DNA of 51,574 nucleotides, taken from NCBI GenBank assembly GCA_035549195.1, contig DASZRK010000029.1, positions 1 to 51,574 on the forward strand, in the 5' to 3' direction. Source of the stretch: a bacterium (GTDB lineage: Bacteria > Oederibacteriota > Muellerivitia > Muellerivitales > Muellerivitaceae). The position numbers were made by a program, and so were the translations under genes. Below are positions 1,441-51,574 of the stretch, one piece after another; position 1 is the stretch's first letter, and each line of letters opens with the position of its first letter. A model generated the notes under the pieces. It worked only from the letters and a program-made list of their open reading frames with translations, ran no database searches and was not told the DNA's origin.

Positions 1441-1513
1441 CCCTTTTGGCCGGGTGACCTTTCCAAAATTCCAGGCGGTGGAACCTGAAGGGCCCGTTCC
1501 TTCCATGAGGCCG

Positions 1514-1527
1514 TTTGACCGGTTCAA
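1514..1527. promoter_or_regulatory. Operator-like palindrome upstream of the GH18 gene
   Basis: TTTGACCGGTTCAA is a two-base variant of the perfect palindrome TTGAACCGGTTCAA found before two other enzyme genes here. It lies about 105 bases before the GH18 start. The CG-centred dyad has the shape of a LacI-family operator (inference). Confidence 0.55.
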
Positions 1528-1631
1528 CGGATAAAGTGACATCAGAATCGCCGGAAATGGACATCGCTATTTTCGGCTTCTGGTAACGTTTCCTCGTCGG
1601 GACCGATCCATTTTCCTTTGAAGAGGGGAAC

Positions 1632-3950
1632 GTGAGAGAGCTTCGCGTGGGTGCTTTGGGGCGCGGCCTACTGAAAACGATTTCAAGACGTCCGGCGATC
1701 TTCCCCTTCCTTCTGTTCATTTCTTGCGTGATCCCGAAGGCCTGGGCCGCCCCGCCCTACCAGGTGGTTTGTTACGCCCTGCAGGACACCAAGTCCAGCA
1801 CCTCCAGCCTCACCGGGAGCGCCGGGGCCATCAACTGGAACAGCGACGTGCCTTGGGGCGACCTGACGGTCATCGCGGACGCCTTTTACCAGCCCAACGC
1901 CAACAAGACCTTCACCAACGTGGGGGCCAAGGGGAACACCCTCATTACGGCCGCCCACAGCCACGGGGTGCGCTGCATCGTGTCCCTGGGCGGGGCAGGG
2001 CAGGATGGGGCCTTCGCCACCCTCTGTTCCTCGGCCAACCGGGCGGCCTTCGCCTCGGCGGTCAGCAACCTAGTGGCGACCAACGGCTACGACGGCGTGG
2101 ACATCGACTGGGAGACCCCCGGGGCCGCGCCCCAGGCGGACGCCACCGCGATGATGCAGCTCATCTACCAGGACATCAAAGCCCTGCCCAATTCCACTTT
2201 CGACAACCAGCCCCGGACGGTCTCCTTCGCGACGGTGGATTACGTGCGGGACATCTACAACATGACCACCCTGGGGAGCTACACCGACTGGTGCTTCTAC
2301 ATGGGTTACGATTGGTACGACTGTCCCAACAAGTACAACGGTCCCCTGAACCTCATCAAGAACGGGATCGCGGCCATGACCAATGGGAGCCATTGGGCCT
2401 ATCCCCTCTCCAAGATGGTCCTGGGATGTCCCCTTTACACCAACGATTACGACGGCGGTTGCGGGGCCCAGGAATACCAGACCCTTTCCACCCTCCATTT
2501 GGGGACGGCCGGGGCCTACAACGCGACCTATGCGGAGCAGTCCTACACGGCGAACGGCCATCAGGTCTATGTGGACACGGCCCAGAGCTATTGCGACAAG
2601 ATCAATTGGGCCGTCGGGTCGGGTTTGCGGGGTATCGGCATGTGGGACCTGGGCCAGGGCCTGCCCTATACCGACAGCCTGATGTCGCCCATCTGGGACG
2701 TCATCGGCGGCAACAGCGCCTGTCTGACGGTCGTGGGCTCGACGCCCACCCCGACCCGGACGGCTTCGATGACGCCTACGGCGTCCCTCACCGCTACACC
2801 TTCGGCTACGCCAACGCGGACTTCGACGGCCACCGCCACCGCGACGAATTCGGCCACCCGCACGAATACTTCCACGGAGACCGCTACGTCCACCTTCACG
2901 CGGACGGCTTCGATGACACCTACGGCCTCCCTCACCGCTACGCCTTCGGCTACGCCAACCCGCACTTTCACGGCCACTTCGACCAACACGGCCGCCAACA
3001 CTTCGACCCATACCGCGACGGCCACCGCCACCCGGACGAACACTTCCACTGGGACCGCCACCGCTACCTTTACGCGGACGGTTTCGATGACGCCTTCGGC
3101 GTCCCTCACCGCTTCGCCTTCGGCTACGCCAACTCGCACTTTCACGGCGACTTCCACCAACACGGCCACCAATACCGCGACCTCTACGGTGACTTCGACC
3201 CCGACGGTGACCTCGACCTCCACGAATACTTCGGTCATTACGCCGACCCCGACGGATTCGATGACGCCTACGGCGTCCCTCACCGCTTCGCCTTCGGCTA
3301 CGCCAACACGCACGTTCACCGGGACTTCCACCGTGACTTCGACCCCGACGATGACGTCCACTCCAACGCTGTCGCCTACCGCGACCGCGTCTTCGACGTC
3401 CACAAGGACGGCGACGGATTCGATGACGGCTACGCCGTCCCTCACCGCTTCGCCTTCGGCTTCGCCCACGCACACGCCGATGCAGCCCACGAATACCTTC
3501 ACCTCGACCGCGACGCCCACGGCTACTTCGACATTCACCCTGACGAGGACATCCACCCCCAGTTCCACGCCGACCACCACGTCAACTCCGACCCATACCT
3601 TCACTCGAACCTTTACTCCGACGGCGACGAGGACCTCGACCGCCACGGCGACTTCGACCCCGACCCCGAACGGCAATGGACGGCCCGTCGTTTATCCCAA
3701 CCCGGCTCCGGGTCCCACGGTGAACCTCTTGCCGCCGCCCTATCCGGGGATCGGGACGGTCGAAGTGGATGTCTTCACCGGCGCTTTCCGAATGGCGGCC
3801 CATTGGGAGTTCGCCAATGTTCCATCGGGGGTTTCCGTGGTCGTTCCCTTGACCGATGGCCGTGGTTCTCCTCTGGCCAACGGGATCTATTACCTGAGGG
3901 TCCGTACTCCGGCGGGTCACTTCCTGACCAAGTTGCTGGTCCTTCGCTGA
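1632..3950 (+). CDS. GH18 chitinase-like secreted enzyme
   Basis: This is a predicted secreted glycoside hydrolase of family 18, acting on chitin or another GlcNAc polymer. The GTG start is preceded by AGAGGGG. A signal peptide covers roughly residues 1-40 and ends ...IPKAWA|APP. The GH18 barrel (about 41-370) contains the DxxDxDxE motif as DGVDIDWE, D154 to E161, with E161 the expected acid/base. The barrel ends with LRGIGMWDLGQGLP. A Thr/Pro/Ser linker of about 310 residues follows, then the shared C-terminal domain (VYPNPAPGPTV ... FTGAFRMA ... LANGIYYLRV ... KLLVLR). At 772 residues it is long for the family because of the linker. An operator-like palindrome lies upstream. Substrate is not proven by sequence; endo-beta-N-acetylglucosaminidase is an alternative. 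Confidence 0.9.
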   Translation: MRELRVGALGRGLLKTISRRPAIFPFLLFISCVIPKAWAAPPYQVVCYALQDTKSSTSSLTGSAGAINWNSDVPWGDLTVIADAFYQPNANKTFTNVGAKGNTLITAAHSHGVRCIVSLGGAGQDGAFATLCSSANRAAFASAVSNLVATNGYDGVDIDWETPGAAPQADATAMMQLIYQDIKALPNSTFDNQPRTVSFATVDYVRDIYNMTTLGSYTDWCFYMGYDWYDCPNKYNGPLNLIKNGIAAMTNGSHWAYPLSKMVLGCPLYTNDYDGGCGAQEYQTLSTLHLGTAGAYNATYAEQSYTANGHQVYVDTAQSYCDKINWAVGSGLRGIGMWDLGQGLPYTDSLMSPIWDVIGGNSACLTVVGSTPTPTRTASMTPTASLTATPSATPTRTSTATATATNSATRTNTSTETATSTFTRTASMTPTASLTATPSATPTRTFTATSTNTAANTSTHTATATATRTNTSTGTATATFTRTVSMTPSASLTASPSATPTRTFTATSTNTATNTATSTVTSTPTVTSTSTNTSVITPTPTDSMTPTASLTASPSATPTRTFTGTSTVTSTPTMTSTPTLSPTATASSTSTRTATDSMTATPSLTASPSASPTHTPMQPTNTFTSTATPTATSTFTLTRTSTPSSTPTTTSTPTHTFTRTFTPTATRTSTATATSTPTPNGNGRPVVYPNPAPGPTVNLLPPPYPGIGTVEVDVFTGAFRMAAHWEFANVPSGVSVVVPLTDGRGSPLANGIYYLRVRTPAGHFLTKLLVLR

Positions 3951-4057
3951 TCGGGACGGTCCATCGAACGGATCGAACCTCGCTTGGCTTGAACGAGAAA
4001 GAGAACGCCAGTCCTCCAGCCGCAGAAAAAACCCGAAAAAAGTTTTAGAGAGTTCCG

Positions 4058-4077
4058 GGATCCATTGGGTCCTTTTT
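4058..4077 (+). terminator. Weak rho-independent terminator-like hairpin
   Basis: GGATCC, loop ATT, GGGTCC, then five T. The stem is only 6 bp with one wobble, about 108 bases after the GH18 stop codon. It may end the GH18 transcript. Confidence 0.3.
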
Positions 4078-4088
4078 GAGCCAATTTC

Positions 4089-4117
4089 TTGTCCCTTTTG
4101 GTCCCGGGCGGTATATT
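4089..4117 (+). promoter_or_regulatory. Sigma70-type promoter for the GH51-like gene
   Basis: The -35 TTGTCC (4089-4094) and -10 TATATT (4112-4117) are separated by exactly 17 bases. The operator-like palindrome lies about 80 bases downstream, between this promoter and the start codon, where a bound repressor could block elongation. Confidence 0.5.
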
Positions 4118-4197
4118 TTTTCCGAAGTTCCAGTGTTTGAACGTCTTTCCACCCCACCAACACAGGACCTTGCCCGGCTAAATAAATTGCAATTTCA

Positions 4198-4211
4198 TTG
4201 AACCGGTTCAA
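4198..4211. promoter_or_regulatory. Perfect operator palindrome TTGAACCGGTTCAA
   Basis: This is a perfect 14-base palindrome centred on CCGG, 20-26 bases before the possible start codons of the next gene. An identical copy lies at 8601-8614, and near copies lie at 1514, 17092 and 20633. Confidence 0.65.
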
Positions 4212-4231
4212 GAAAACGATTTAAACGACAG

Positions 4232-7200
4232 GTGAGCATGCCCGTTCTCCGGTTCAAGTACCTTTCCTTCTATATTCTCCTCCCGATCGTCCTTTTCCTC
4301 ATCGCCGCTCCTTCCATGGCCGCCGGTGTTTCCGTCACCGTCAACGCCGCCTCGGCCATCCGGACCATTCCGGACACCCTTTTCGGCCAGAACATGTCCG
4401 TCTATGACGGTTCCGCGACGGCGGGCAACACGAACTATGTGAATGCCCTGAGCGCCATGGGGACCTACAACCTTCGCTTCCCGGGTGGGAGCTGGTCCGA
4501 CGGCGTGGACTGGAGCAACCTGGAGAACGGGCCGGCCCCGGGCTGTTCCTCCGGCTCCTACATCATCAACATCAGCGAGGGGATCGCCTTCGCCAAGGCC
4601 GCCAACGTTCCACTCCAATGCATCGTGAACTACGGGGGCTATTGGTGTCCCGGGGGCGCCACCAGCCATGGCCACGCGGCGGCGGTGTCGCTGGCGTCGG
4701 CCTGGGTCAATTACATGAACAAGGGAGCGGGGAACTACAAGGTCACCTATTGGGAAGTGGGGAACGAGATCTTCGGGAGCTGGGAGAACGGCTACGAGAC
4801 GAACGGCACCAATTACGGGAACAACTTCGTGGACTTCTACAACGCCATGAAGGCCGTGGACAGCACCATCAAGGTCGGGGCCATCTGCCAGGACGAGTCG
4901 GGATGGATGCCCTGGTCGGAGGCGGCCCTTTCCGCCATCAAGGCCAAGGGCGTCACGCCGGACTACCTCATCTCCCACGCCTATCCCATCGGGAACGCCG
5001 CGGACAACACGACCGTGGACAACCAACTGCTCACCACCGAAGTGGACGCCGCCACGACCCGCACCAGCGAGATGAACACCATCCTGTCCACGGCGGGTTT
5101 CACCCCCGGCAGCATCCCCTATTGGATGACCGAATACCGTAGCACTGCGCCCGAGCAGAAGACGGTGGAGTGGGTGGACGCCATGTGGAGCGCCCAATAC
5201 CTGCTGGAACTCGGCCGGAACGGTTGGCAGGGCGCGAACATCTGGGCCATCAAGAACGGGTTCAGCTCGGCGGTCACCTCGGACTTCGGGCTTTTGCGCG
5301 GCGGCAGCGCTAATTCGGACGACACCCCCGCCAACAACCCCCGGCCGGCCTGGTACATCTTCCCCTACCTCTCCAAGGTCTTCGGGCGGAACCTGGTCTC
5401 CGCCACGACCAGCCTGGCGGCCCAACGCTGCTGGGCCTCGAAGGACGCGTCGGGCAACCTAACGGTCTTCACCGTGAACAATACGGCCACCAGCAATACG
5501 GTCACCATCACCGTCTCGGGCTTCTCGCCGGGGACCTCGGGCAACATCTGGACCCTGGCCCCGGCGGGCACGACCAAGTCGGGGGCTTCCACCCCGGCCC
5601 AGGAACTCCGTTGGATCAGCGTCAACGGCACCACGAACCCGGCGGTCTCCGCCGTGCCTGGAACGGGCAACTCCATCACTACGGGGGCCAGCTTCCCGGT
5701 GACGGTCCCGGCCTACAACATGGTCTTGGTCAAGGTCCCGCCCGGCGGCACGCCGGTCCCCACCTCCACCCCGACCCGTACCGTGACGCCCACGCCCACC
5801 CAGTGCACGATCCTCCTGAACGGGACGAACTCCCTGACCGAGAACGGGACCTGGAGCGGGGTGAACGCCACCCGGAGCATCGCGACCTCGGGCCTGCCGT
5901 CGGGCATGCCCTCGGAGGGGTCGGGGGCCCTGCAGGTCCATATCACGACCGGGTCCGCCTATAACGCCGACATCGCCAACCTGGCGGGGTTCTCCCCGGC
6001 GGTCTTCGGGTCCGCGGTGCAGCTCCAAATGGAGGTGAACGCCGCCGCCACGCTGGTCTCGGCCTTGGGCGGCTGGCATAGCCTCGTCCTGGTGGCCGAT
6101 TCCTCCGCCGGACCGGTCACGACCTGGCAGTCCATCTCCTCCGATTCCCCGACCTTGGTGGCGGGCCAGCAGACCCTGACCTTCAACCTGGACTATCCCC
6201 AGGCCATCACTTCCGCCTCCGCCCTGAGCACCCTGCGGATCGTCCTCAACGCCCAGAACGCGGCCGTCGGCGACCTTTTCATCGACAACATCCGGCTGGT
6301 CAATTCCTGCGGGATCGCCACCCCGACCTTCACCCCGACCCGCACCCCCACGCCCTGCTCAGCGCTTTTCAACGGCTGCCAGAGCGCCGTCGAGAACGGG
6401 ACTTGGAGCGGGAACAACGCGACCCGGACCTTCGTGAATTCCGCCGGGGCGGTGGCCGGGATGCCCTCCCAAGGGACGACCTGCATGAAGGTCCAGGTGA
6501 CCACCCCCAGCGGTTACAACAACGACCTCTTCAACCTGAGCGGCTTCACCCCGACCGATCTCTATGGGACCACCCGTATCTCCATGGACCTCTACGCCGA
6601 TGCCGCCCTGGTCGGCGGCGGCTACAACCAGTTGATCCTTTTCGCCGACTCCGGCCCGAACGGCATTTCCTACCAGGGCCTGTCCTCCACGGTCCCCACG
6701 GTGGTGGCAGGTCTACAGACCCTGACCTGGACCATCGATTTCCAGAACCCCGGGGGAGGGGCCAGCTCCCTCACCTCGGCCATGCCCATCACCAAGCTCT
6801 ATTTCGTCTACAACACCGGCGCCCCGACGGCCCTGGGGAACTTCTACGTGGACAACATCCAGTTCCTCCACGACGGGTGCATCCCGACCCACACGCCCGT
6901 CCCGACGGCTACGCCCACCCGCACGGCCACTTCGACCCCCACCAACAGCCCCACGCGGACGCCTTCGTCCACGCCCACGAGCACCAGTAGCCCGACCGCC
7001 TCGCCCAGCATGACCCTTACGTCCTCGCCCACGGCGACGCGCACTTCGACCCCCACGGCTTCGATGACGCCGACGGCGTCCCTTACGGCTACGCCTTCGG
7101 CTTCGCCAACCCGTACCTCCACCTCGACAGCGGCCAGTACGGCGACTTCCACCCCGTCTTCCACGGCAAGCCGCACGGCCACTTCCACCGCCTCCAATAG

Positions 7201-8443
7201 CCCGACGGCGAGCGCCACCTCCAGCTTCACCCCGACCTCCACGCCTACCCGGACGGCTTCGATGACGTCCACGGCTTCGCCCTCCTCGACCCCAACGGTC
7301 ACCCGTACCTTCACGAATACCGATGTCATCACGCCCACCCCGACCTCGACCCCCACGGTCACCGTGACCTCCACGGCCAGCGGTACTCCGACGTCCACTT
7401 TCACGAATACCCCGACCGCGACGGCTTCGCCCTCTCGGACATCCACTTCGACCTCGACGGCGACCGCCACCTTCACCATGACCCTCACCGGGACCCCCAC
7501 CTCCACTCCGACGATCACCCCGACCCCCACTAACACCGATGTGATCACCCCGACGCCGACTTCGACGGGGACGATGACCTTCACACCTTCCCCGACCGCC
7601 ACTTATTCACCGACCCCGACCTTTACGTCGACTTCGACGGATTCGATGACGCCTAGCGCGACAGCCTCCAGCACTCCAACGCCTTCATCGACATCAAGCT
7701 GGACGGCGTCCCTCACCGCTTCGCCTTCGGCTACGCCAACACGAACGTTCACCGGGACTTCCACCGTGACTTCGACCCCGACGGTGACGGCGACTTTCAC
7801 GAACACCAATGTCATCACGCCCACCCCGACCTCCACGGGGACTTCGACCGGAACCTCGACGGCTTCGACTACGGCGACTACGTCGCCTAGCGCGACAGCC
7901 TCCAGCACTCCAACGGCTTCATCGACATCGAGCTGGACCCTCACCGCTTCGCCTTCGGCTACGCCAACTTGGACCTCCACTTCGACCCCGATGGTGACCT
8001 TCACCCCATCCGCTACCGCTACTCGGACCCCTACATCGACCTCCACGGTCACTTTCACCCCAACCTTCACCCTGACCCCTTCTTTCACCCCGACGGTCAC
8101 GCTGACCCCGACGCCCAGTTCAACATCCACCAAGACCTCTACGGCCACCGGCGTTCCCAAAAAGGGCGGGGTCGTTCCTTATCCCAATCCGGTGTCCGGG
8201 CCTGGCCCCATTTCGGTCCAGATCACCCTGATCCAGCCGGAAAGCGATGTGAAGCTCACGGTCTTCACGACGGCTTTCCGGAAAGTGAATGAAATGGACC
8301 TGGGCGCACTGCCGATCGGGGTCTATCAAGTCGGTCTGTCCCTCAGGGACAAAGCGGGTGCGGACCTGGCCAATGGCCTTTATTACATCGTGGTCCATAG
8401 TTCGGAAGGCCGGTTTATCGGAAAACTCCTGATCTCCCGCTAG
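4232..8443 (+). CDS. Secreted clan GH-A (GH51-like) arabinofuranosidase-type enzyme with duplicated binding domains
   Basis: This is a predicted secreted enzyme cutting plant hemicellulose or pectin side chains. GTG 4232 or ATG 4238 could start it; AGGTGA lies very close, so the choice is unsure. The signal peptide ends ...APSMAAG. The barrel (about 35-400) has YWEVGNE with E179 as likely acid/base and YWMTEYRS with E301 as likely nucleophile, the spacing of clan GH-A. A beta-sandwich follows to about 505. Two homologous domains of about 180 residues come next (each begins C-x-L-x-NG and carries ENGTWSG-N-ATR, ending in F-I/V-DNI); they are probably carbohydrate-binding. A Thr/Pro linker of about 420 residues and the shared C-terminal domain (PYPNPVSG ... 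[11 protein letters not shown] ... LANGLYYIVV ... KLLISR) finish the 1403 residues. The family assignment is by motif only; GH39 or GH30-like families remain possible. Confidence 0.85.
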   Translation: MSMPVLRFKYLSFYILLPIVLFLIAAPSMAAGVSVTVNAASAIRTIPDTLFGQNMSVYDGSATAGNTNYVNALSAMGTYNLRFPGGSWSDGVDWSNLENGPAPGCSSGSYIINISEGIAFAKAANVPLQCIVNYGGYWCPGGATSHGHAAAVSLASAWVNYMNKGAGNYKVTYWEVGNEIFGSWENGYETNGTNYGNNFVDFYNAMKAVDSTIKVGAICQDESGWMPWSEAALSAIKAKGVTPDYLISHAYPIGNAADNTTVDNQLLTTEVDAATTRTSEMNTILSTAGFTPGSIPYWMTEYRSTAPEQKTVEWVDAMWSAQYLLELGRNGWQGANIWAIKNGFSSAVTSDFGLLRGGSANSDDTPANNPRPAWYIFPYLSKVFGRNLVSATTSLAAQRCWASKDASGNLTVFTVNNTATSNTVTITVSGFSPGTSGNIWTLAPAGTTKSGASTPAQELRWISVNGTTNPAVSAVPGTGNSITTGASFPVTVPAYNMVLVKVPPGGTPVPTSTPTRTVTPTPTQCTILLNGTNSLTENGTWSGVNATRSIATSGLPSGMPSEGSGALQVHITTGSAYNADIANLAGFSPAVFGSAVQLQMEVNAAATLVSALGGWHSLVLVADSSAGPVTTWQSISSDSPTLVAGQQTLTFNLDYPQAITSASALSTLRIVLNAQNAAVGDLFIDNIRLVNSCGIATPTFTPTRTPTPCSALFNGCQSAVENGTWSGNNATRTFVNSAGAVAGMPSQGTTCMKVQVTTPSGYNNDLFNLSGFTPTDLYGTTRISMDLYADAALVGGGYNQLILFADSGPNGISYQGLSSTVPTVVAGLQTLTWTIDFQNPGGGASSLTSAMPITKLYFVYNTGAPTALGNFYVDNIQFLHDGCIPTHTPVPTATPTRTATSTPTNSPTRTPSSTPTSTSSPTASPSMTLTSSPTATRTSTPTASMTPTASLTATPSASPTRTSTSTAASTATSTPSSTASRTATSTASNSPTASATSSFTPTSTPTRTASMTSTASPSSTPTVTRTFTNTDVITPTPTSTPTVTVTSTASGTPTSTFTNTPTATASPSRTSTSTSTATATFTMTLTGTPTSTPTITPTPTNTDVITPTPTSTGTMTFTPSPTATYSPTPTFTSTSTDSMTPSATASSTPTPSSTSSWTASLTASPSATPTRTFTGTSTVTSTPTVTATFTNTNVITPTPTSTGTSTGTSTASTTATTSPSATASSTPTASSTSSWTLTASPSATPTWTSTSTPMVTFTPSATATRTPTSTSTVTFTPTFTLTPSFTPTVTLTPTPSSTSTKTSTATGVPKKGGVVPYPNPVSGPGPISVQITLIQPESDVKLTVFTTAFRKVNEMDLGALPIGVYQVGLSLRDKAGADLANGLYYIVVHSSEGRFIGKLLISR

Positions 8444-8550
8444 CCTCAGAGCGCGGGAAGGTCTTGGAAAAGTTGCGGGATGTTCCGTCCCCGGAAAGCC
8501 TTTACCCAAAATTCCCCTGTAACCTTTGGCGGCCGCTCACGATAGTTCGG

Positions 8551-8556
8551 TATGAT
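8551..8556 (+). promoter_or_regulatory. Candidate -10 box TATGAT before the PL4 gene
   Basis: TATGAT lies about 100 bases before the PL4 start and 45 bases before the operator palindrome. No good -35 box was found at 16-18 bases, so this is weak. Confidence 0.3.
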
Positions 8557-8600
8557 TTGAACATCGGACGTTCCCTTGAAGGGGTTTCCACGCCCGGATG

Positions 8601-8614
8601 TTGAACCGGTTCAA
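8601..8614. promoter_or_regulatory. Perfect operator palindrome TTGAACCGGTTCAA
   Basis: Identical over all 14 bases to the site at 4198-4211. It lies 38 bases before the PL4-type lyase gene, whose stop overlaps the GH28 gene, so it may control both. Confidence 0.65.
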
Positions 8615-8652
8615 TTAAAAAGTTTTCCAAAGACTCCGCGCCTGAAAGCCGG

Positions 8653-11600
8653 ATGAGGTCGATGATCGCGAAACGCTTAAAACAATTTTTCTTTCTGCTT
8701 TCCTTCCTATTCTTGGAAGCGCTTCCGCTTTGGGCCAATGTCCCCGGCGGGGGCACGGGGACCGGCGGCAACGTCACGGTCACCGACAACGGCGGCACCG
8801 TGGTCCTGGCCAACGGCATCGTGTCCGTCACCATCAATAAATCCAACGGCAACATCACCAATTTCACCTACAACGGGACCAATCTGCTCTCGGGGGGGCA
8901 CGGGGGCGGTTACTTCTATTGGGATGGTTCCGGTGGGCCGACGCTCTCGAGCGCCGTTTACACCTTGAGCGTCAATCCGTCCGGTAACGGAGGGAACCAG
9001 GCGGAGGTCTGGCTCCAATCGACCGCCGATCCGATGGATATGGCCGTCTATTACGACCTCAACCGCGGCCAGCAGGGCATCTACGTGACCATGATCCTCA
9101 CCCACCAATCCGGTTATGCCGACTATCCGGGGGCGGAACTGCGGTCGAACGTCTATGTTGGTTCCATCTTCGACTGGCTTTGCGTGGATCCTTACCGTTT
9201 CCGTCAGATGGCCTCGCCCAACGACAGTTCGGTGGCCGTGGCGGGCGCGCCCGCCGAGGTCACCCAATGGACCAGCGGGATCTACAACGGTCTCACGGAA
9301 TGCAAATACGCCTATAGCGCTCCCCTTGGCCAATTGGACACCTGGGGCTGGGCTTCCAGCAGTTCGGTCGACGGCATCTGGCAAGTGCTCCCGAGCCATG
9401 AGTATTACGATGGCGGGCCCATGCACCGGGAACTCACCGAGCACATCGGCAACACGCTCCTGAACATGTTCGGCGGCGGGCACTATGGATTCGGATCGAC
9501 CCAGGACCAACCGGCCGGGACCTTCTCCTCCAAGACCTTTGGCCCGGCTTTTATTTACGCCAACAAGTACACGGGATCCGCCGGCGACCCCGTCTCCCTC
9601 AAGGCCCGGACCCTTTGGGCCGACGCCCAGGCCCAGGCCGCCGCCGAACAGGGCGCTTGGCCCTATACCTGGTTCCATCCCCAGACGCCCAGCGGAATGA
9701 GCGGCTCCCCCTATCCCCAGGACAGCGGGCGGGGGACCGTGAGCGGGACCCTGGCCATCAACGATCCCAACAACCCCGGCGCCTCACCGGTGAGTCTCTG
9801 GATCGGTTTGGCGCCGGATAACGGCGGGACCGATTTCCAGCAGCAATACCTGACCTACCAGTTCTGGGTGCGCACCGGGGCCGGAGGGAGCTTCTCCATC
9901 CCGCACGTTTTGCCCGGCGCCTACAACCTCTGGGCCTTCGGTCCGGGCGCCATCGGTACCTTCAAGCGGACCGGGGTCAATGTGAACGCGGGTTCCACCG
10001 TCAACCTGGGCACGGTCACCTGGGGCCCGTTGCGCTTGGGCCCCACCGTCTGGGAGATCGGGACGCCGGACCGGGATTCCAACGAATTCTTCAACGGGGA
10101 ACATTCGCTCACGCCCTATAACGGCGCCCTTCCGCGCTACGCGGGCGGCGCTCCCTATAACAGCCCCACCGCCTGGGGCGCCTTCCTGGATTACGCGAAC
10201 CAGTTCCCGGGCGGGGTCAGCTTCACGGTGGGGAGCAGCAACCCGGGGACCGATTGGAACTACTGCCAACCCACCACCTATACGGGATCCGCCTACACCG
10301 GGACGACTTCCCGGATCTATTTCAACCTTGCCTCCGCGCCCTCGGCGGCCCAGACCGCCCGGCTTTATATCGCCTTTGCCTCGAATTACAGTTCCGCCTG
10401 CATCTTGACGGTCAATGGGACCGTCCAGACCGCCGCGGTCATGGGGTCCACCAACGGCCAATACGCGTCCATCACCAATCCGGCGACGGGTTTTTATCCC
10501 CCGGCCCACAGTTTTGACAGCATTGTCCGCCTGGGTTCGCAGGGTGCCTGGGGGGACGCCTACCTGGACTTCGCGGCCAACAAGCTCCACGCGGGGACGA
10601 ACGAGATCGATATCGGCATGCGGCCCGCCGGCGGCGCGGGCAATGGGAACGGGTTCGAATACGACTATTTGCGCCTGGAAATGACGGGATACAGTTCTTC
10701 GTCCTCACCGACGGCTACGCCCACCAGGACGTCGACGGCGACATGGACCGCGTCATCGTCCCCGACGGCCACGGCTTCGACTACGCCGACTCCGTCGGCT
10801 ACGCTCACCGCTACGCCTTCGGCTTCGCCCACCAAAACCTTCACGGCGTCGGGGACTCCGACAGCCACTTCGACCCGGACCTTTACGGCGACGGCCTCGA
10901 ACACGTCTTCGTCCACGGCGACGGCCACGCGCACCCATACCCCGGTGCCGCCTACGAACACTCCCACCATCACGGCGTCTTCCACGTCCACGGCGACGAG
11001 GACGGCCACGGCTTCGACTACGCCGACTCCGTCGGCTACGCCCACAAAGACCAATACCATGACGGCCACGTTCACCTGGACCAGCACCCCGACGGCTTCG
11101 ACTACGGCGACTCCGTCGCCTACGCTCACCGCTACGCCTTCGGCTTCGCCAACGCCCACGCCGGTTCCACCCACGAATACCTTCACCTCGACCGTAACGT
11201 CCACCGCCACGATGACGCCGACGGCTTCGATGACGCCTAGCGCGACAGCCTCCAGCACTCCAACGCCTTCATCGACATCAAGCAGTTCGATGACGGCTAC
11301 GCCTTCCCTCACTGCGAGCTGGACGCCGTCCCTCACCGCTTCGCCTACGCACACGCCCGTGCCGCCAACAGCCACTTTCACGAACACGAATAGTCCTGTT
11401 CCGCCGACGGCTACCTTCACAAATACCAATAGTCCGGTGCCGCCCACGTCTACCTCGACCCGTACCTTTACGGAAACCTCCACAAATACACCCACGAACA
11501 CCGCCGTTCCTCCGACGGCCACCATGACCCGGACCTTCACTTCCACAGCCTCGGGAACCCCCACCCCGACGAACAGCTTCACTGCCACCTGGACCTTGCC

Positions 11601-11976
11601 CCCCACCTTTAGCTACACGCCGACGGTTACCCCGACATTGACCTGGACTTCAACTCCTACCTTCCCACTCCTCACTCCTACCTTCACGCCGGGGACCGGC
11701 GTGACCGCGGTGATCTATCCGAACCCGGCGACCGGGGATGGCTTCAACATCCAGGTGACGGGGATGACCACGGTGGACAAGGTCCAGGTGCAGGTGGAGA
11801 CAACGGCCTTCCGCAAGGTGAACGAGATGACCTTCCATAGCCAAGGGCCGGGGACGGCGATCCTGGCCGTGCCCGCGACGGACGCTTCGGGCGCGCCGCT
11901 GGCCAACGGGGTCTATTACGTGATCGTCCGCACCGAAGGCGCACGGATCACCCTGAAATTGATGGTGCTACGTTGA
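8653..11976 (+). CDS. PL4-type rhamnogalacturonan lyase, secreted
   Basis: This enzyme is predicted to cleave the rhamnogalacturonan I backbone of pectin by beta-elimination. ATG 8653 was taken; ATG 8662 is an alternative. The signal peptide ends near residue 29 (...[10 protein letters not shown]). The order fits three-domain PL4 lyases: an N-terminal beta-sandwich catalytic domain opening with [15 protein letters not shown] (about 35-350), a carboxypeptidase-regulatory/FnIII-like domain (GTVSGTLAI ... [20 protein letters not shown], about 355-460), and a CBM-like domain beginning [17 protein letters not shown] (about 465-680). A Thr/Pro linker of about 330 residues and the shared C-terminal domain ([12 protein letters not shown] ... 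[12 protein letters not shown] ... [10 protein letters not shown] ... KLMVLR) follow. The TGA overlaps the ATG of the GH28 gene, so the two pectinases are probably co-translated. The last 235 bases are almost identical to the end of that gene. Confidence 0.88.
10926..11222 (+). repeat. Linker-coding repeat, copy 1
   Basis: About 297 bases within the PL4 Thr/Pro linker match 13421-13717 in the GH28 linker without gaps and with only scattered substitutions. The match runs from the [10 protein letters not shown] coding segment to the codons before SMTPSATAS. It marks recent recombination or duplication between the two genes. Confidence 0.8.
11740..11976 (+). repeat. C-terminal-domain repeat, copy 1
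   Basis: Near-identical to 14298-14534. In the first 205 bases only two substitutions were counted by eye, both silent (AC[A] to AC[G], GC[A] to GC[G]); the last 30 bases diverge more. Such DNA identity in an otherwise diverged pair suggests gene conversion. Confidence 0.85.
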
Positions 11977-14534
11977 TGCACTGGGTCCCCAAACCGCCCG
12001 CTTTCGCCGTTTTCCTGTTCCTTGGCGCCTCGGTCCAGGCTCAGACCCTCAACATCACTTCCGCTCCCTACAACGCCACCACGGGCAGCACGGACAACCG
12101 GGCCGCCATCCAGGCGGCCATCAACGCGGTGGGGAGCGGCGGGACCGTGCTGGTCCCCTCGGGGACCTTCCTTTCCGGCCCCTTGACATTGAAGAGCAAC
12201 ATGACCTTCCAGATCGCCTCGGGCGGGACCCTCAAGATGACCGCTTTCGGGACCTTCCCCCAGAACACGAGTTTCGTCTATGGGACCAACCTCACCAACC
12301 TCACCCTGAACGGGTCGGGGACCATGGACGGCCAAGGCGCGGCCTGGTGGACGGATTTCAACAACGGCAATCCGGACAACCGGCCCCCAGCCATGATCTA
12401 CCTCTCCAAGTCTTCCAACGTGACCCTGATGGGGATCACGGTCAAGGATTCGCCCAAGTTCCACATCCAAACCCTGGGGTCCATGAACGGGGTCTATTGC
12501 TCGGGCTTGAGCATCACGGCGGCCTGGCCTTCGCCCAACACCGACGGCATCGACCTGAGGGGGAAGAACTACCTGATCGAGAACTGCTACATCAGCGACG
12601 GGGACGACGTCATCCAGATCGGGGGCAGTTCGGACAACTGCCAGGCCATCACCATCCGCAACTGCACCTTCGGCACCGGCCACGGCCTTTCCATCGGGGG
12701 TTACACCCAGGGCGGGGTGAGCGACCTGTTGGTGGACAACTGCACCTTCAACGGCACCCAGTACGGCATCCGGTGGAAGACGGGCCGGGACCGGGGCGGG
12801 GTCATCACCAACCTGACCTACTCCAACATCACCATGACCAACATCCTGCTCTATCCCTTCTTCCTGACCAGCTTCTACCCGAATCCCTCGTCCCTGCCGC
12901 CCACCACCGACGACACCCAGGCCATCACCAGCACCACGCCCTTCTGGAGCAATATCACGCTCCGGAACATCACGGCCACCACGGCTTCCAGCGGCGCCAA
13001 GAGCCCGGGAATTATGTGGGCGGTGGCGGAGGCTCCGGTCTCCAATGTGACGCTCGACGGCGTCACCGTGACGGGTCCCAGTGGGAAGAACTTCGAGTTC
13101 CACCACGCCAGGAACGTGACCATCCTGTGCAATGTCCGGGTGGACGGACAGGCGCCCCCGACCGACATCGGGTCCTTCGACGCGACCATCACCTACCCGC
13201 CCTGCGGGAGCGCCACCAATACCTTCACCCCGACCCGGACGAACACGCCGGTGCCGCCGACGGCGACCTTGACCCGGACCAACAGCCCGACCTCAACCCC
13301 TACTTTCACAGCCACTTCGACCCGGACGGCTTCGATGACGCCTAGCGCGACAGCCTCCAGCACTCCAACGCCTTCATCGACATCAAGCTGGACGGCGTCC
13401 CTCACCGCTACGCCTTCGGCCACGCGCACCCATACCCCGGTGCCGCCTACGAACACCCCCACCGCCACGGCGTCTTCCACGTCCACGGCGACGAGGACGG
13501 CCACGGCTTCGACTACGCCGACTCCGTCGGCTACGCCCACAAAGACCAATACCATGACGGCCGCGTTCACCTGGACCAGCACCCCGACGGCTTCGACTAC
13601 GGCGACTCCGTCGCCTACGCTCACCGCTACGCCTTCGGCTTCGCCAACGCCCACGCCGGTGCCACCCACGAATACCTTCACCTCGACCGCAACGTCCACC
13701 GCCACGATGACGCCGACCAGGACCTTCACGGTGACGGCGGTCCCACCCACCGCTACCGCGACGGCCTCCTCCACGGCGACTTCCACTTCGACCCCTTCGG
13801 GAACGCCCACGAATACGGCGGTCATCACTCCCACGGCGACCTCCACCGCCACCAGAACGGGGACCCCGACCGCCTCTTCCACCTTTACGGTCTCATCGAC
13901 GCCCAGTTCCACCCCCACCCCGAGCTTCACCGCCTCTTTCACGCCCTCGAGCACCGCCACGAGAACCTTCACGGCGACGGCGGTCCCACCCACGGCTACC
14001 GCGACGGCTTCGATGACGCCTAGCGCGACAGCCTCCAGCACTCCAACGCCTTCATCGACATCAAGCTGGACGGCGTCCCTCACCGCTTCGCCTTCGGCTA
14101 CGCCCACCCGGACTTTCACCCCGACGAACAGTTCCACCGCCACCTGGACCTGGACCCCCACGGGGACGCCCACCCCCACCCTGTCACAGACGCCTACGGC
14201 GACGCAGACAGGGACTCCGTCCTTCAGCCCCACCCTCACGCCCACGGCGGGGAACGGGATCCAGGCGGTGATCTACCCGAACCCGGTGTCAGGGGACGGC
14301 TTCAACATCCAGGTGACGGGGATGACCACGGTGGACAAGGTCCAGGTGCAGGTGGAGACGACGGCCTTCCGCAAGGTGAACGAGATGACCTTCCATAGCC
14401 AAGGGCCGGGGACGGCGATCCTGGCCGTGCCCGCGACGGACGCTTCGGGCGCGCCGCTGGCCAACGGGGTCTATTACGTGATCGTCCGCACCGAAGGCGC
14501 GCGGATCATCCTCAAATTGATGGTCTTGCGATGA
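11976..14534 (+). CDS. GH28 polygalacturonase, secreted
   Basis: This enzyme is predicted to hydrolyse polygalacturonan (pectin). The ATG overlaps the previous stop as TGATG, which is why it is preferred over an upstream TTG. The signal peptide ends about residue 17 (...GASVQAQ). The right-handed beta-helix covers about 18-410 and carries all GH28 signatures: NTDGID (D190), DGDD (D210, D211), GTGHGLSIG (H236) and R266-W-K268, so the catalytic and substrate-binding residues look intact. A Thr/Pro linker of about 350 residues and the shared C-terminal domain ([12 protein letters not shown] ... [10 protein letters not shown] ... [10 protein letters not shown] ... KLMVLR) follow. It forms a pectin-degrading pair with the PL4 lyase just upstream. 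Its exact mode (endo or exo) cannot be read from the sequence. Confidence 0.92.
13421..13717 (+). repeat. Linker-coding repeat, copy 2
   Basis: Gapless near-copy of 10926-11222, here in the GH28 gene. A shorter cassette reading [14 protein letters not shown] recurs on both sides of it and in other linkers of the block. Confidence 0.8.
14298..14534 (+). repeat. C-terminal-domain repeat, copy 2
   Basis: Near-identical to 11740-11976; see that entry. Confidence 0.85.
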
Positions 14535-14677
14535 ATGGTCGCCCTGTCGTTTTTTGATCGTGGATCGCTGAAAAAGAGCGATTTCTAACGGGTCGGTCAG
14601 GTCTTGGTGGCCTGAGAAAGGGCCAAGTTCGTTCCAACATAGGCGCTTTATCATTAAATTATTTGCCCCGTGGATGG

Positions 14678-14716
14678 CACTGAAAATGCACCTGGAACCA
14701 GGCAATATTTTCAGTG
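14678..14716. promoter_or_regulatory. Nested inverted repeat before the Kelch-type gene
   Basis: Outer arms CACTGAAAAT (14678-14687) and ATTTTCAGTG (14707-14716) are perfect complements. They enclose inner arms CCTGG (14691-14695) and CCAGG (14698-14702). The structure ends 18 bases before the ATG and is followed by TTTT. It could be a leader hairpin, an operator or a terminator. Confidence 0.5.
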
Positions 14717-14734
14717 TTTTCCGAGTGGGGTCCA

Positions 14735-16195
14735 ATGCGTTCTTCCTTCAAGGTCCTGGGGTGTCTAGGGTGGATGATCTTGTCCTGGGTGGCGGGGTGT
14801 AACAGGCCCTTTTCAGGCCCGGCCGCTCCTGGCATTTCGAACTCCTTGTCGACCCCGACGGATACCCAATTTCCATCCAAGACCTGGACGCCCACGATCA
14901 CGGATACCCACACCCCGTCCCCGACCATGACCGCTTCACCCTCGTCCACGCCCGTCCCCTCCGATACTTGCACGGGGACGCCGTCCATGACACGGACCGC
15001 TTCCTTTACCTGCACGGAGACGCCCACTTCCAGCCCGACTTCCACCTTTTCTGCCACCCTTACCCCGACTGCGACTGATCCGAATACGGCGACCTCGACG
15101 TCGACCGTGAGCTGGACCCCGTCGCCGACGCTCACCGCGTCGCCATCCGCCACCCCTTCGGGGACCTCCACTTCGTCCCCGACCCCCAGCGCCACCGGGA
15201 CCCCCACTCCCTCCGCGACCGCCACGGCCTCGGCTACCGCCACGCCGACCCAGAAGCCCTTGGGGTGGGTGCAGGCCACCGCTTCGGCGTCTTTTGGTCC
15301 CCGGATGTTCTCGGGGTACGCCGTCTTCAACAATAAGATGTGGCTGATCGGAGGTGGGACCGATTGCTCCATCCAAGGCGGGGTCAAGGCGGACGTCTGG
15401 TCCTCGACCGATGGGATCACCTGGACCGAGGTCCTGGCCAATCCTCCTTTCGGAACCCGGTGGGGATGCGGGACGGTGGTATTCAACGGCAAATTGTGGG
15501 TCATCGGCGGAGTGGTCACAGGTGGTTTCGGGAATGATGTCTGGAATTCCAGCGATGGGGTCCAGTGGACCCAAGTCACGGCCGCCGCGCCTTTCGCAGC
15601 CCGGGAGGATTTTGGTTGCGTGGTCTTCAATGGACGCATTTGGGTCATCGGCGGGGACAATAGCCTAGGGCTGGCCGCGATGTCGGATGTCTGGAGTTCG
15701 GCCGACGGTGCGAATTGGAAAAGGGAGGCTGATTTTCCCTCGGCTCGGGCCGGTGCTTCCTGTGTGGTGTTCAATGGGGCCATCTGGGTCATCGCCGGGG
15801 GAAAGGCCACTCCGGCGGGTGGGAACGCCTATTACGTTAACTCTTATTCGGATGCCTGGTATTCCAATGACGGGACCCATTGGACCCAGGCCACGGCCAA
15901 CGCGGGTTTTTCAGGACGGGTCTATGCTTCCGCCCAGGTCTATTACAACCAGATCTGGCTCATGGGTGGGGCCGGTAGTTCCTATATGCCGACCATCCCC
16001 AACACGGGTGTGGATGATGACGTGTGGGTCACCAACGATGGGACGACCTGGACGCAAAAGTATGCGACCCTACCCTTCGCCAAACGATTCGCCGCTGAAA
16101 GCTACGCCTATAACAATTCCTTTTGGGTCGCGGGGGGCGGGGCCTTCTGGCCCGGGAGCGGCGCCTACTATCCTGACGTCTGGCATAACCCTTAA
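14735..16195 (+). CDS. Lipoprotein with Thr/Pro linker and six-bladed Kelch-type propeller
   Basis: The ATG at 14735 is preferred over an upstream GTG (14714), because it directly begins a lipoprotein signal peptide with lipobox WVAGC (Cys22). A Thr/Pro/Ser linker (about 30-178) follows, then a propeller built from six repeats. Each has a strand of the type FNGKLWVIGG (six variants, from FNNKMWLIGG to YNNSFWVAGG) and a turn of the type DVWSSTDGITWTEV. The last ends at DVWHNP at the stop codon. Unlike the four upstream enzymes and the protein at the window start, it lacks the FRKV/KLLVLR C-terminal domain, so lipid anchoring seems to replace it. No catalytic residues were recognised; a carbohydrate- or protein-binding surface role is inference. 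It is convergent with otsB, 5 bases away. Confidence 0.85.
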   Translation: MRSSFKVLGCLGWMILSWVAGCNRPFSGPAAPGISNSLSTPTDTQFPSKTWTPTITDTHTPSPTMTASPSSTPVPSDTCTGTPSMTRTASFTCTETPTSSPTSTFSATLTPTATDPNTATSTSTVSWTPSPTLTASPSATPSGTSTSSPTPSATGTPTPSATATASATATPTQKPLGWVQATASASFGPRMFSGYAVFNNKMWLIGGGTDCSIQGGVKADVWSSTDGITWTEVLANPPFGTRWGCGTVVFNGKLWVIGGVVTGGFGNDVWNSSDGVQWTQVTAAAPFAAREDFGCVVFNGRIWVIGGDNSLGLAAMSDVWSSADGANWKREADFPSARAGASCVVFNGAIWVIAGGKATPAGGNAYYVNSYSDAWYSNDGTHWTQATANAGFSGRVYASAQVYYNQIWLMGGAGSSYMPTIPNTGVDDDVWVTNDGTTWTQKYATLPFAKRFAAESYAYNNSFWVAGGGAFWPGSGAYYPDVWHNP

Positions 16196-27427: not shown

Positions 27428-27439
27428 GGCCGGCCATTG

Positions 27440-33812: not shown

Positions 33813-34685
33813 GTGAAAGCGTCTTTCCGGTTCTTTTGGGAGGGAAGTTTGGATCTTGCCTGCCGACTTTGCGGCGCCGCGACCCAGCCTTTCCACACCC
33901 AAGCCGGCCGGCGCAAGTACTACCTTTGCCCTTCCTGCCGTTTCATCCTGCTCGATCCCGCCCTTCATCCCACACTTGCGGCGCAGAAGGAACGCTATCT
34001 CCAGCACCAGAACAGCCCGGACCATCCGGGCTACGTGGCCATGTTCCGCCAATTCCTGGGGGATTGCGTGACGCCCTATGTCCGGACGGGCTGCCGGGCG
34101 CTGGACCTGGGCTGTGGGCCTAGTCCGGTCCTGGCGGGTTTGCTGAAAGAAGCGGGCCATCCCACGGAGATCTACGATCCGATCTTCTTCCCGGAGGAAC
34201 CCCGGGGGACCTTCGGCTTGGTGACCTGCACCGAGGTCCTGGAACACTTGGGCGACCCGGTGGCGGTCCTTCGGCCTTGGGTAGGGCACCTGTCCAACGG
34301 CCCTTCCCCGGCCATTGGGGACAAGCCAATGGCCACGAATGGGTCATCCCGGATCGAGGCGCCGTCCGAAGGAAAGGCGCCAAAAGGGGATCCGGGACAA
34401 GCCGGTGGACAAGTCTTGGTTGTGCCGAGCCAAGGTGCGGACCGTATGGGAGGCACCAAACCGGGCTCGGCCAGATTGGAGCCGGGAGGGATCCTGGCAG
34501 GGCTCACCCTCTTCCATCCGGACGATCCGGTGAAATTCTCCGAATGGTCCTATCCCCGTGACTTCACCCATGTCTCCTTTTACACGGCCCATACCCTGGA
34601 GGTGCTGGCCAAGGCCCTGGGGCTTTCCCTGGTCTTCACCGACGGCAAGCGGGGTTTCGTGATGAAGGCTTCCGGGGAAGGTTGA
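33813..34685 (+). CDS. SAM-dependent methyltransferase with zinc-ribbon N-terminus and in-frame repeat insertion
   Basis: A class I methyltransferase of the Methyltransf_23 type. GTG 33813 gives the longest product; TTG 33849 has a much better ribosome site (GGGAGG, 6 bases) and may be the true start. An N-terminal CxxC...CxxC knuckle (CRLCGAATQPFH ... YYLCPSCRF) precedes the SAM motif ALDLGCGPSPVLAGLLKEAG and the later strand LVTCTEVLEHLGDP. Between VAVLRPWV and LEPGGILAGLTLFHPDD, which are normally almost adjacent, lie about 65 extra residues low in complexity (PAIGDKPMATN ... APKGDPGQAGG). They are encoded by palindromic repeat DNA also found at the window's end. The core motifs remain, so the enzyme may still work. 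The substrate is unknown. Confidence 0.8.
   Translation: MKASFRFFWEGSLDLACRLCGAATQPFHTQAGRRKYYLCPSCRFILLDPALHPTLAAQKERYLQHQNSPDHPGYVAMFRQFLGDCVTPYVRTGCRALDLGCGPSPVLAGLLKEAGHPTEIYDPIFFPEEPRGTFGLVTCTEVLEHLGDPVAVLRPWVGHLSNGPSPAIGDKPMATNGSSRIEAPSEGKAPKGDPGQAGGQVLVVPSQGADRMGGTKPGSARLEPGGILAGLTLFHPDDPVKFSEWSYPRDFTHVSFYTAHTLEVLAKALGLSLVFTDGKRGFVMKASGEG
34307..34341 (+). repeat. In-frame palindromic element, copy 1 (methyltransferase)
   Basis: A 35-base segment with 9-base arms GGCCATTGG and CCAATGGCC around a 7-base loop. It matches 51540-51574 at 34 of 35 positions and is read in the same frame (PAIGDKPMATN). It is followed by more dyads (TCCCGGATC at 34347-34355 with GATCCGGGA at 34389-34397). 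Confidence 0.8.
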
Positions 34686-49818: not shown

Positions 49819-50097
49819 ATGAAGCGTTTTTTTGTGGTCTTGATGTCGGTGTTGTTCCTCGGCGCGGCCGGGATGACCTTGGCGGATGAAGCCATGATGT
49901 CGTCCACGCCTGCGGCCACCCCGGGAAAAATGATGAAAAGTAAGAAGAAAATGAAGAAAAAGAAGATGATGAAGAAGGCCGTGATGAAGAAGGACGACAC
50001 GATGAAGGACGACATGAAGAAAGATGACTCGATGAAGAAGGACGATATGAAGACCGACATGAAGGACGACATGAAGAAGGACGACATGTCGAAGTAA
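49819..50097 (+). CDS. Secreted Met/Lys/Asp-rich repeat peptide
   Basis: A 92-residue product with a clean signal peptide (FFVVLMSVLFLGAAGMTLA|DEA) and strong ribosome site (AAGGAGG). After a short Thr/Pro-bearing hinge (SSTPAATPGK) come a Lys/Met block (MMKSKKKMKKKKMMKKAVMKK) and then repeated MKKDD/MKDD units to the end. Met-Asp-Lys patterns of this sort occur in 'pentapeptide MXKDX' type secreted peptides, which are thought to bind metal; this is memory-based. A gap of 249 bases upstream contains a weak copy-like TTGGACCGGTTCCA at 49746. Confidence 0.75.
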   Translation: MKRFFVVLMSVLFLGAAGMTLADEAMMSSTPAATPGKMMKSKKKMKKKKMMKKAVMKKDDTMKDDMKKDDSMKKDDMKTDMKDDMKKDDMSK

Positions 50098-50183
50098 GAC
50101 GCTTCAGCCGCGCCTTTGGCATCCGCCAAGGGATCGCTGGCGGAGCCTCCTTGGGTCCCGGGTTCTCCGCCCGGGGCCCTGAA

Positions 50184-50288: not shown

Positions 50289-50367
50289 TTTTTCAAAATT
50301 CCTGGAAGCCCCCCGAACGTTTTTTTAAGATTTGCCCGGCCGTCACCCTATAAGCCGGAGGTATCGA

Positions 50368-51574
50368 ATGAGTCCCGTCGCCAATGCCGTCGCCCAGATC
50401 GTTGACATTCCCTTAGGCCAGATCCTGGCCAATCCGGAAAACCCCCGGGGCCCGGTGGACCCTCAGGCCGCCCAGGCCATGGCCGAGTCCCTTCAGGCCA
50501 AAGGCCAACAGGTCGAGATCCGGGTCCGCGCACTGACGGAAGCCGAAAAGACCAAATACCCCGGCTATGAATACCTGCTCATCGGGGGCCACGTGCGCCT
50601 GGCGGGGGCCAAGCTGGCCGGGCTGGCGATCCTGCGGGCAGTGGTGCTGGAGGGGTTGAGCGAGGATGAGGAGGAGCTGGCGGCCATCCTGGATAACAGG
50701 TGGGAGCCTATGTCCTGGTGGCGGTGGGACCTGGCCATCGAGCGGCGGATGAAGCGGTACACGGGACAGACCCAAAGGAAGGTCGCGGCGGAATTGGGAT
50801 TGTCGGCGGCCAAGGTGAACAACGCCTGGAAGATCACCCGGGTCTTAACCCCCGAGGCCCGAAAAACCCTTGAAAAGAGTGTTCAGGCTCTGAACACCGA
50901 AAATAAGGGTTTTTCTATTACCGAGGTCCATCTGCTGGTCCTGGCCGAACTGGGGGACGCCGAACAGGTCGAAAGGGCCCTGGGGGCGGTCTTGGACGAC
51001 TACCTGACCCCCGACCAATGCAAGAAGCTGGTGGCCTGGGTCAAGGCCGGCAACCCGGTCGATAGCTTTAAGGTGGGGCAGGTCCAGAAGGCGCCAGCCG
51101 TGGTCAGCCCGGAACCTAAGACCGAAAGCCAAGTCAAAGAGGATAGGAAAGCGGTGGTCGACCCTGGGGACGCGGATTCGGGGGATAGGGCCTCCGGTTC
51201 CATGTCTAAACCCTCGCCACTTGGGGGAGAAGGTGGGGTGAGGGGTGCTTCAGCAGGGCATACTCCGTTGCAAGAGCTCTACCTCTACCTGACCTCGGAC
51301 CCCCTGCGGAAGTTCCTGGCCGCTAACCTGAAGCGAGCCTTGGGGACCCTGACTAGGCGTTGGATGGTCCATGGGATCCTGGCCCTAGGCCTGTTGCTGT
51401 TGCTGGGCCGTAGCTGGATCGGGAAGCTCTTGGCGGCCAAGCCCCTGGCTCCGGCGGTCTCCCAAACCCAACCCGCCCCAACACAATCCCAGACAGCGTC
51501 AGACACTGAGACTTCTCAAAATCAACCAGCCAGCCCATACCCGGCCATTGGGCACAAGCCAATGGCCACGAATG
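50368..51574 (+). CDS. ParB-like nuclease-fold protein with predicted membrane segment, 5' part
   Basis: Open to the window's end, at least 402 residues; GGAGG stands 6 bases before the ATG. An N-terminal ParB fold (about 9-110) has VDIPLGQILANPENPRGPVD and GGHVRLAGAKLAGLAILRAVVLEG; the usual GERR-type box is GGHVR. A helix-turn-helix-like part follows (about 130-165, TQRKVAAELGLSAAKVNNAWKI). After a linker (about 230-310) comes a short helix (LQELYLYLTSDPLRKFL) and then a strongly hydrophobic span, about 332-351 (MVHGILALGLLLLLGRSWIG). Two repeat-derived segments lie in the linkers (PSPLGGEGGVRG and PAIGHKPMATN). Membrane anchoring of a ParB-type DNA-binding protein is unusual. Whether it segregates DNA or regulates is unknown. 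Confidence 0.75.
   Translation, partial: MSPVANAVAQIVDIPLGQILANPENPRGPVDPQAAQAMAESLQAKGQQVEIRVRALTEAEKTKYPGYEYLLIGGHVRLAGAKLAGLAILRAVVLEGLSEDEEELAAILDNRWEPMSWWRWDLAIERRMKRYTGQTQRKVAAELGLSAAKVNNAWKITRVLTPEARKTLEKSVQALNTENKGFSITEVHLLVLAELGDAEQVERALGAVLDDYLTPDQCKKLVAWVKAGNPVDSFKVGQVQKAPAVVSPEPKTESQVKEDRKAVVDPGDADSGDRASGSMSKPSPLGGEGGVRGASAGHTPLQELYLYLTSDPLRKFLAANLKRALGTLTRRWMVHGILALGLLLLLGRSWIGKLLAAKPLAPAVSQTQPAPTQSQTASDTETSQNQPASPYPAIGHKPMATN
51211..51246 (+). repeat. 'CCCTCGCC ... GGTGAGGGG' dispersed repeat in coding sequence
   Basis: CCCTCGCCACTTGGGGGAGA then AGGTGGGGTGAGGGG is of the widespread 'ccctctccc ... gggtgaggg' type and is read in frame as PSPLGGEGGVRG in the ParB-like protein. Confidence 0.5.
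51540..51574 (+). repeat. In-frame palindromic element, copy 2 (ParB-like protein)
   Basis: Matches 34307-34341 at 34 of 35 positions and keeps the same reading frame (PAIGHKPMATN). It is cut by the window's end, so its full extent is not visible. Confidence 0.8.

Follow-up and report, generated by a model that had tools for sequence, protein, structure and literature searches.

The 51,574-nt contig C29 of the source genome, analysed here over its whole length as the window, raises the question of why one short palindrome should be read in the same frame in two unrelated proteins. The first host is a Methyltransf_23-type SAM methyltransferase of 290 amino acids encoded on the forward strand (33813–34685; Pfam PF13489, 2.4e-15). 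The second, also on the forward strand, is a ParB-like protein (50332–51574; ParB_N / TIGR00180) whose gene is open at the contig end. A reading made from the sequence alone had reported a 35-mer in each gene, at 34307–34341 and 51540–51574, and both were found as described. The 9-bp inverted arms (34310–34318 and 34326–34334) and the common reading frame (PAIGxKPMATN) were confirmed as well. Allowing up to three mismatches, the 25-nt palindrome was found at three places in the 3.2-Mb genome, compared with no occurrence of a reversed-pattern control, and it is therefore not a product of chance. A match to its first half at 27430 was discarded as a chance intergenic 11-mer in which the second arm is missing.

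The 35-mer is real, and it proved to be only part of a larger element. When the region was searched against the whole genome with BLAST, similarity was found to exceed 35 nt, reaching 114 nt at 89% identity with C56:20176–20289. Moreover, the 3′ half of the methyltransferase insert resembles loci on contigs C77, C17, C2, C44, and C45, which differ in sequence and share the same layout. The sequence-only reading had also proposed that about 65 extra residues split the methyltransferase. The insert exists; its size is 62 codons (186 nt, 34287–34472, forward strand), a length divisible by three, and it consists of two elements of one family. It is absent from five homologues, four in genomes G001, G003, G005, and G006 and one in G014, which is more distant; homologues from the same family and distant ones (30% identical) alike lack it.

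Element A (34305–34397, forward strand; 93 nt, 31 codons) contains the palindrome first noticed as its hairpin 1 (34310–34334), which is evident in the sequence and in folding. Its stem 2 (34347–34397), indicated by the fold and by covariation within the family, has outer arms at 34347–34355 and 34389–34397 and an inner hairpin at 34358–34363/34376–34381. The final covariance model of the family, R2, matches A at 34305–34396 with 72.1 bits (E=1e-11 genome-wide). Element B lies on either side of A on the same strand. Its left part (34287–34304) comprises the CACCTG start, the left arm of hairpin 1, and half of the loop. Its right part (34398–34471, or 34472) holds the right arm of hairpin 1, the CTTGGTTGTGCC core, stem 2 with an inner hairpin, and the GGC end, and is matched by R2 at 34400–34471 with 56.0 bits. 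Stem 2 of B (34424–34471) folds through pairing of GCCGAGCC (34424–34431) with GGCTCGGC (34464–34471) around an inner hairpin (34434–34438/34453–34457). Hairpin 1 of B (34292–34410; arms 34292–34301 and 34401–34410) is interrupted by A; with A taken out, 9 of its 10 positions pair. The A-excised B folds as the consensus, with a loop identical to that of the family and divided by A at its middle (CCT^CAA). Judged from these junctions, A is nested in the hairpin 1 loop of B; B entered the methyltransferase gene first, and A later entered the loop of B.

A third A-type copy, at C56:20181–20272, is identical to A at 87 of 93 nt, and from this identity the A subfamily looks to be the youngest in the source genome. 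The A-type copy in the ParB-like gene (51538–51574, forward strand) gives a partial R2 match covering model positions 1–38, cut off at its 3′ end, and was truncated by the assembly, since the window ends exactly where contig C29 does. The ParB-like proteins of the window and of C56 are paralogues (blastp 4e-53) with a near-identical C-terminal part that includes the element. Because they share this surrounding sequence, the two ParB copies probably go back to a single insertion that was multiplied by duplication or gene conversion, rather than to two separate events. Repeats of other kinds were also seen in the window. Several large open reading frames in positions 1–15300 contain long Thr/Ser/Pro-rich repeats (TPTATxTxTx type, 18–24 nt), and two pairs of 300-nt blocks there (10915/13410 and 11670/14228) are almost identical; these frames probably encode surface proteins in which segments were recently duplicated. 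At 49939–50101, close to the end of an open reading frame, there are short tandem repeats with many MKKD/KKDD codons.

The consensus element begins with CNCCTG, followed by a 10-bp hairpin 1 (loop CCTCAA), a conserved spacer around CTTTGGTTGTGCC, a stem 2 of the GCCGAGCC/GGCTCGGC type, and a terminal GGC. Its copies fall into two main size classes, about 66 and about 93 nt, each divisible by three; in the long form, stem 2 encloses the inner hairpin. R2 was built from 27 unedited copies; among the seeds of an earlier model (A2), three copies were each short of one base and B was used with A cut out. Among these 27, 91.4% of cells are paired compared with 76.0% after shuffling, 19 of 24 pairs show two-sided changes (94 such cells versus 21), and the covariation score is 0.424 versus 0.138 for shuffled and 0.05–0.09 for slid controls. 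Strong covariation was thus found in all three helices against both kinds of control; kinship of the copies may make the shuffled controls too easy to beat, but the slid controls lie likewise far below. Rfam gave no match above the gathering score at the elements of seven loci.

At E<=0.01, R2 yielded 135 matches, of which 114 also reach E<=0.001. All come from eight genomes of family f1 of the candidate phylum FCPU426: 19 in the source genome G000, 42 in G001, 21 in G002, 1 in G003, 24 in G004, 4 in G005, 17 in G006, and 7 in G007. Many of these copies are old and have diverged. The first covariance model found nothing convincing in 35 FCPU426 genomes of other families, where the best match (E 0.065) was treated as chance. 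A 20-base core pattern searched against 84,980 species genomes was found in three FCPU426 genomes, one of them titled Proteobacteria and nevertheless matching G006, and at one Erythrobacter site, which the covariance model scored at E 0.1 and which was likewise treated as chance. Among the genomes searched, the element is found only in this one family. Two clusters of copies deserve mention. At G007:C347:836–967, two 66-nt copies stand head-to-tail without a spacer and in frame inside one gene, an arrangement suggestive of an inserted element that expanded in tandem. In the source genome, where contig C2 ends and C17 starts (loci L017 and L015), an element sits in a 158-nt tandem array within the N-terminal part of a gene for an aldo/keto reductase; the assembly breaks at this point, and the two contigs are probably adjacent.

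The relation of the copies to genes was examined with a home-made codon-usage finder applied to draft metagenome assemblies. The copies are not confined to the spaces between genes: 57 of the 135 matches lie fully within predicted genes and 8 fall at a gene edge; the other 70 are outside, and some of these may in fact lie in genes or pseudogenes because the coding coverage of the finder is 73%. Nor are the frames mixed at random. One frame on one strand is used by 36 of the 57 genic copies, and after orthologous and duplicated cases were collapsed by hand, 25 of 43 independent genic insertions share one of the six frames (p about 1e-9). The favoured reading runs on the strand opposite to the consensus and is of the AGSPMEPAQPNRGPRLEASAQV / AQPNSGASAGSGTLAGHNQSPPLGVRTEGQV type. 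Lengths that are multiples of three were found for 35 of 40 antisense genic copies compared with 21 of 70 intergenic ones (Fisher p=3e-9), and 38 of those 40 are open in that frame; in the intergenic copies, each of the six frames is open in a similar number of cases (39–48 of 70). Codon usage is coding-like on both flanks of the insert in 45 of the 57 genic copies. As the sequence-only reading had suggested checking, disorder was estimated from composition (TOP-IDP scale), and the insert was more disorder-prone than its host in 57 of 57 cases. Given the open frames and the retention of length and frame, the inserts are likely to be translated.

The genic hosts belong to conserved families, with Pfam or PDB matches flanking the insert on either side. 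They include, besides the methyltransferase and ParB-like proteins, a TonB receptor, a VOC epimerase, an FAD oxidase, GT4, UmuC, ABC-F, and SDR proteins, a glucuronyl esterase, UvrD-type and AddB-type proteins, and isoleucyl-tRNA synthetase (IleRS). In RimO the element stands between the radical-SAM and TRAM domains, in QueC just before the CxxCxxC end, in the DNA polymerase III alpha subunit (DnaE) between the PHP and polymerase domains, and in a hybrid kinase between HATPase and REC. Empty sites were sought by searching with joined flanks, and at least six hosts proved to have relatives without the insert. The IleRS genes of G002 (empty) and G007 differ by exactly 66 nt. DnaE is insert-free in G007 and G002, RimO in G006 and G004, VOC in G003, and the host on G002:C49 in G007, G006, G000, and G001; the comparison at G002:C79 was too diverged for the junction to be placed. 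In-frame size changes occur among the RimO and VOC copies. The same loop of VOC/glyoxalase is filled in five genomes (G000:C18, G001:C31, G002:C90, G004:C10, and G006:C16), some of which have extra partial copies, and its hairpins are kept by changes on both sides; this may reflect one ancient insertion or a hotspot.

The best explanation, to which we assign a probability of roughly 0.86, is a dispersed family of non-autonomous palindromic mobile elements that are selfish and are translated, where they lie in genes, as tolerated, disorder-prone inserts. The element inserts both between and within genes, and insertions within genes would survive when the frame is kept and the site is a loop or linker. 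The survivors would be translated as a hydrophilic, disorder-prone segment of 22 or 31 residues, mostly read antisense to the consensus. The proposal that the source genome holds a coding repeat resembling the Rickettsia palindromic elements (RPEs) is thereby upheld as to behaviour, on the strength of many in-frame copies, unrelated conserved host genes, and insert-free homologues.

Movement of the element may proceed through a folded single strand, a route suggested by the conserved single-strand fold together with the lack of terminal inverted repeats and target-site duplications. The ends, CNCCTG...GGC, are not inverted repeats, and no repeated flank was seen in most filled/empty comparisons. 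IleRS has one 8-bp direct repeat, and the start CACCTGG recurs in its 3′ flank; as the repeat equals the element's own end, it may reflect either target preference or duplication. The empty site of RimO contains CACCTGCCC. This likeness of target to element in IleRS and RimO is missing at other sites: a CNCCTG-like sequence was found in the 3′ flank of 8 of 101 copies versus the 5′ flank of 2 of 101, too weak a signal to call, and no flanking target consensus emerged. PATE-type non-autonomous derivatives of IS200/IS605 have a hairpin near each end and are expected to lack target-site duplications; the FCPU426 element differs from them in having neither a flanking target consensus nor a matching transposase. 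A RAYT or IS200 mobiliser was rejected because the distribution of Y1_Tnp does not track the element: Y1_Tnp is present in 34 of 43 genomes irrespective of it, and Y1 transposases were not detected in the copy-rich G001 and G006. The single Y1_Tnp of the source genome was also set aside as a candidate, having its own, different inverted ends. It is a 318-aa protein at C61:25604–25930, between 30-bp inverted ends (CAAAGGGGCCAGGCCTACATTTTACACTTT) and 2 kb from the QueC copy, and looks to be a tyrosine transposase of the TIR type that has no relation to the element.

The palindromic elements of Rickettsia and Wolbachia are repeats of about 100 bp (Ogata et al. 2000, 2002, 2005; described in PMC2229807, PMC3767692, PMC10969869). 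RPEs and the FCPU426 element have in common several subfamilies, genic and intergenic copies, in-frame positions in unrelated conserved genes at loops or solvent-exposed sites, insertions that species share at orthologous sites, no assigned mobiliser, and no clear target-site duplication. Hosts overlap as well: DNA polymerase III alpha, IleRS, a RecB-type exonuclease, and a DNA helicase are shared, and a queuosine enzyme is hit in both, QueA by RPEs and QueC by the FCPU426 element (PMC3767692). Conserved genes are invaded in frame without being broken here too (57 genic matches, lengths of 3n, insert-free relatives). Both are dispersed palindromic repeats, RPEs of about 100–150 bp and the FCPU426 element slightly shorter at 66–93 nt. 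Unlike RPEs, the latter has a defined three-helix fold, 66- and 93-nt forms, and a strong bias to one strand and one frame, and it resides in a candidate phylum that lies outside the Rickettsiales and is known from genomes assembled out of metagenomes. Only 6 of 101 copies contain GTCAT/ATGAC, a motif typical of RPE-4/6/7. The likeness is one of behaviour, compared by description, and sequence kinship is not claimed.

Other bacterial palindromes were compared in the same way. REPs tagged with GTAG/CGTC, BIMEs, and REPINs with RAYT transposases are dispersed palindromes, some paired inversely; some intragenic REPs are in frame, and a bias to replication and repair genes has been reported (PMC3733652). 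The FCPU426 element shares the dispersal, the occasional inverse pairing, and some in-frame copies in replication and repair genes. It differs in that its unit is two or three helices of 66–93 nt, that GTAG or CGTC stands at the hairpin foot in 0 of 101 copies, and that its presence does not follow Y1_Tnp; REP identity was rejected for want of the tag and a RAYT link. Like the MITEs known to contain open reading frames (ERIC, Correia/NEMIS, and YPAL; PMC2229807), it is a small non-autonomous repeat able to fuse in frame to genes; classical MITE identity was rejected, as neither terminal inverted repeats nor a consistent target-site duplication was found. Since the GTAG/CGTC tag, terminal inverted repeats, and a RAYT link are absent and GTCAT is rare, the family is classed as a protein-coding palindromic element and not as an RPE. 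A literature search, with most subscription journals outside its reach, returned no paper on FCPU426 mobile repeats.

A more specific version of the selfish-element explanation can be put forward tentatively. Here the element would be lineage-specific, unrelated to RPEs or REPs, mobile by a single-strand mechanism, and independently made coding-compatible, with genes as its normal niche. Its lengths of 3n would let one strand and frame encode a stop-poor, disordered peptide, while the folded strand would stay under selection for movement.

It is improbable that the inserts are instead beneficial modules (linkers, regulators, or RNA thermometers) kept by host selection. The five filled VOC loops, with hairpins maintained by changes on both sides, and the repeated insertions in replication, repair, and tRNA-related genes would suit this idea; the hosts, however, are unrelated, orthologues in sister species are insert-free, nested and tandem copies occur, and half of the copies are intergenic. 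Template switching or re-insertion can also produce such upkeep of hairpins. Very improbable is removal of the insert before or during decoding, by ribosome bypassing or at the RNA level, leaving a protein without it. Bypassed block inserts are known in mitochondrial genes of Magnusiomyces (PMC5009743), bypassed inserts can form strong hairpins as these do, and essential genes (DnaE, IleRS) are invaded. Bypassing requires neither an open frame nor a length of 3n, yet both are the rule among the antisense genic copies, and RimO and VOC copies change size in frame. That the copies are mainly intergenic RNA regulators or terminators, overlapping spurious open reading frames by chance, is scarcely credible: 70 of 135 lie outside predicted genes and open frames are plentiful in GC-rich DNA, but conserved host families match on both sides of the insert, relatives lack it, codon usage is coding-like on both flanks in most genic copies, and the empty and filled IleRS genes contradict it.

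The selfish, coding-compatible palindrome family proposed here bears on how such elements arise. Protein-coding palindromes had been regarded as peculiar to Rickettsia and Wolbachia, which are obligate intracellular bacteria. From the sequences compared, the same behaviour now appears with a different element in a distant uncultured phylum, FCPU426, and partly in the same host genes. Whether the inserts are translated, neutral, or useful can be tested with the covariance model and with the pairs of empty and filled sites (IleRS, DnaE, RimO, VOC, and the methyltransferase). These findings suggest that the in-frame invasion of genes by short palindromes is a recurrent development and a source of new peptide segments for essential enzymes.
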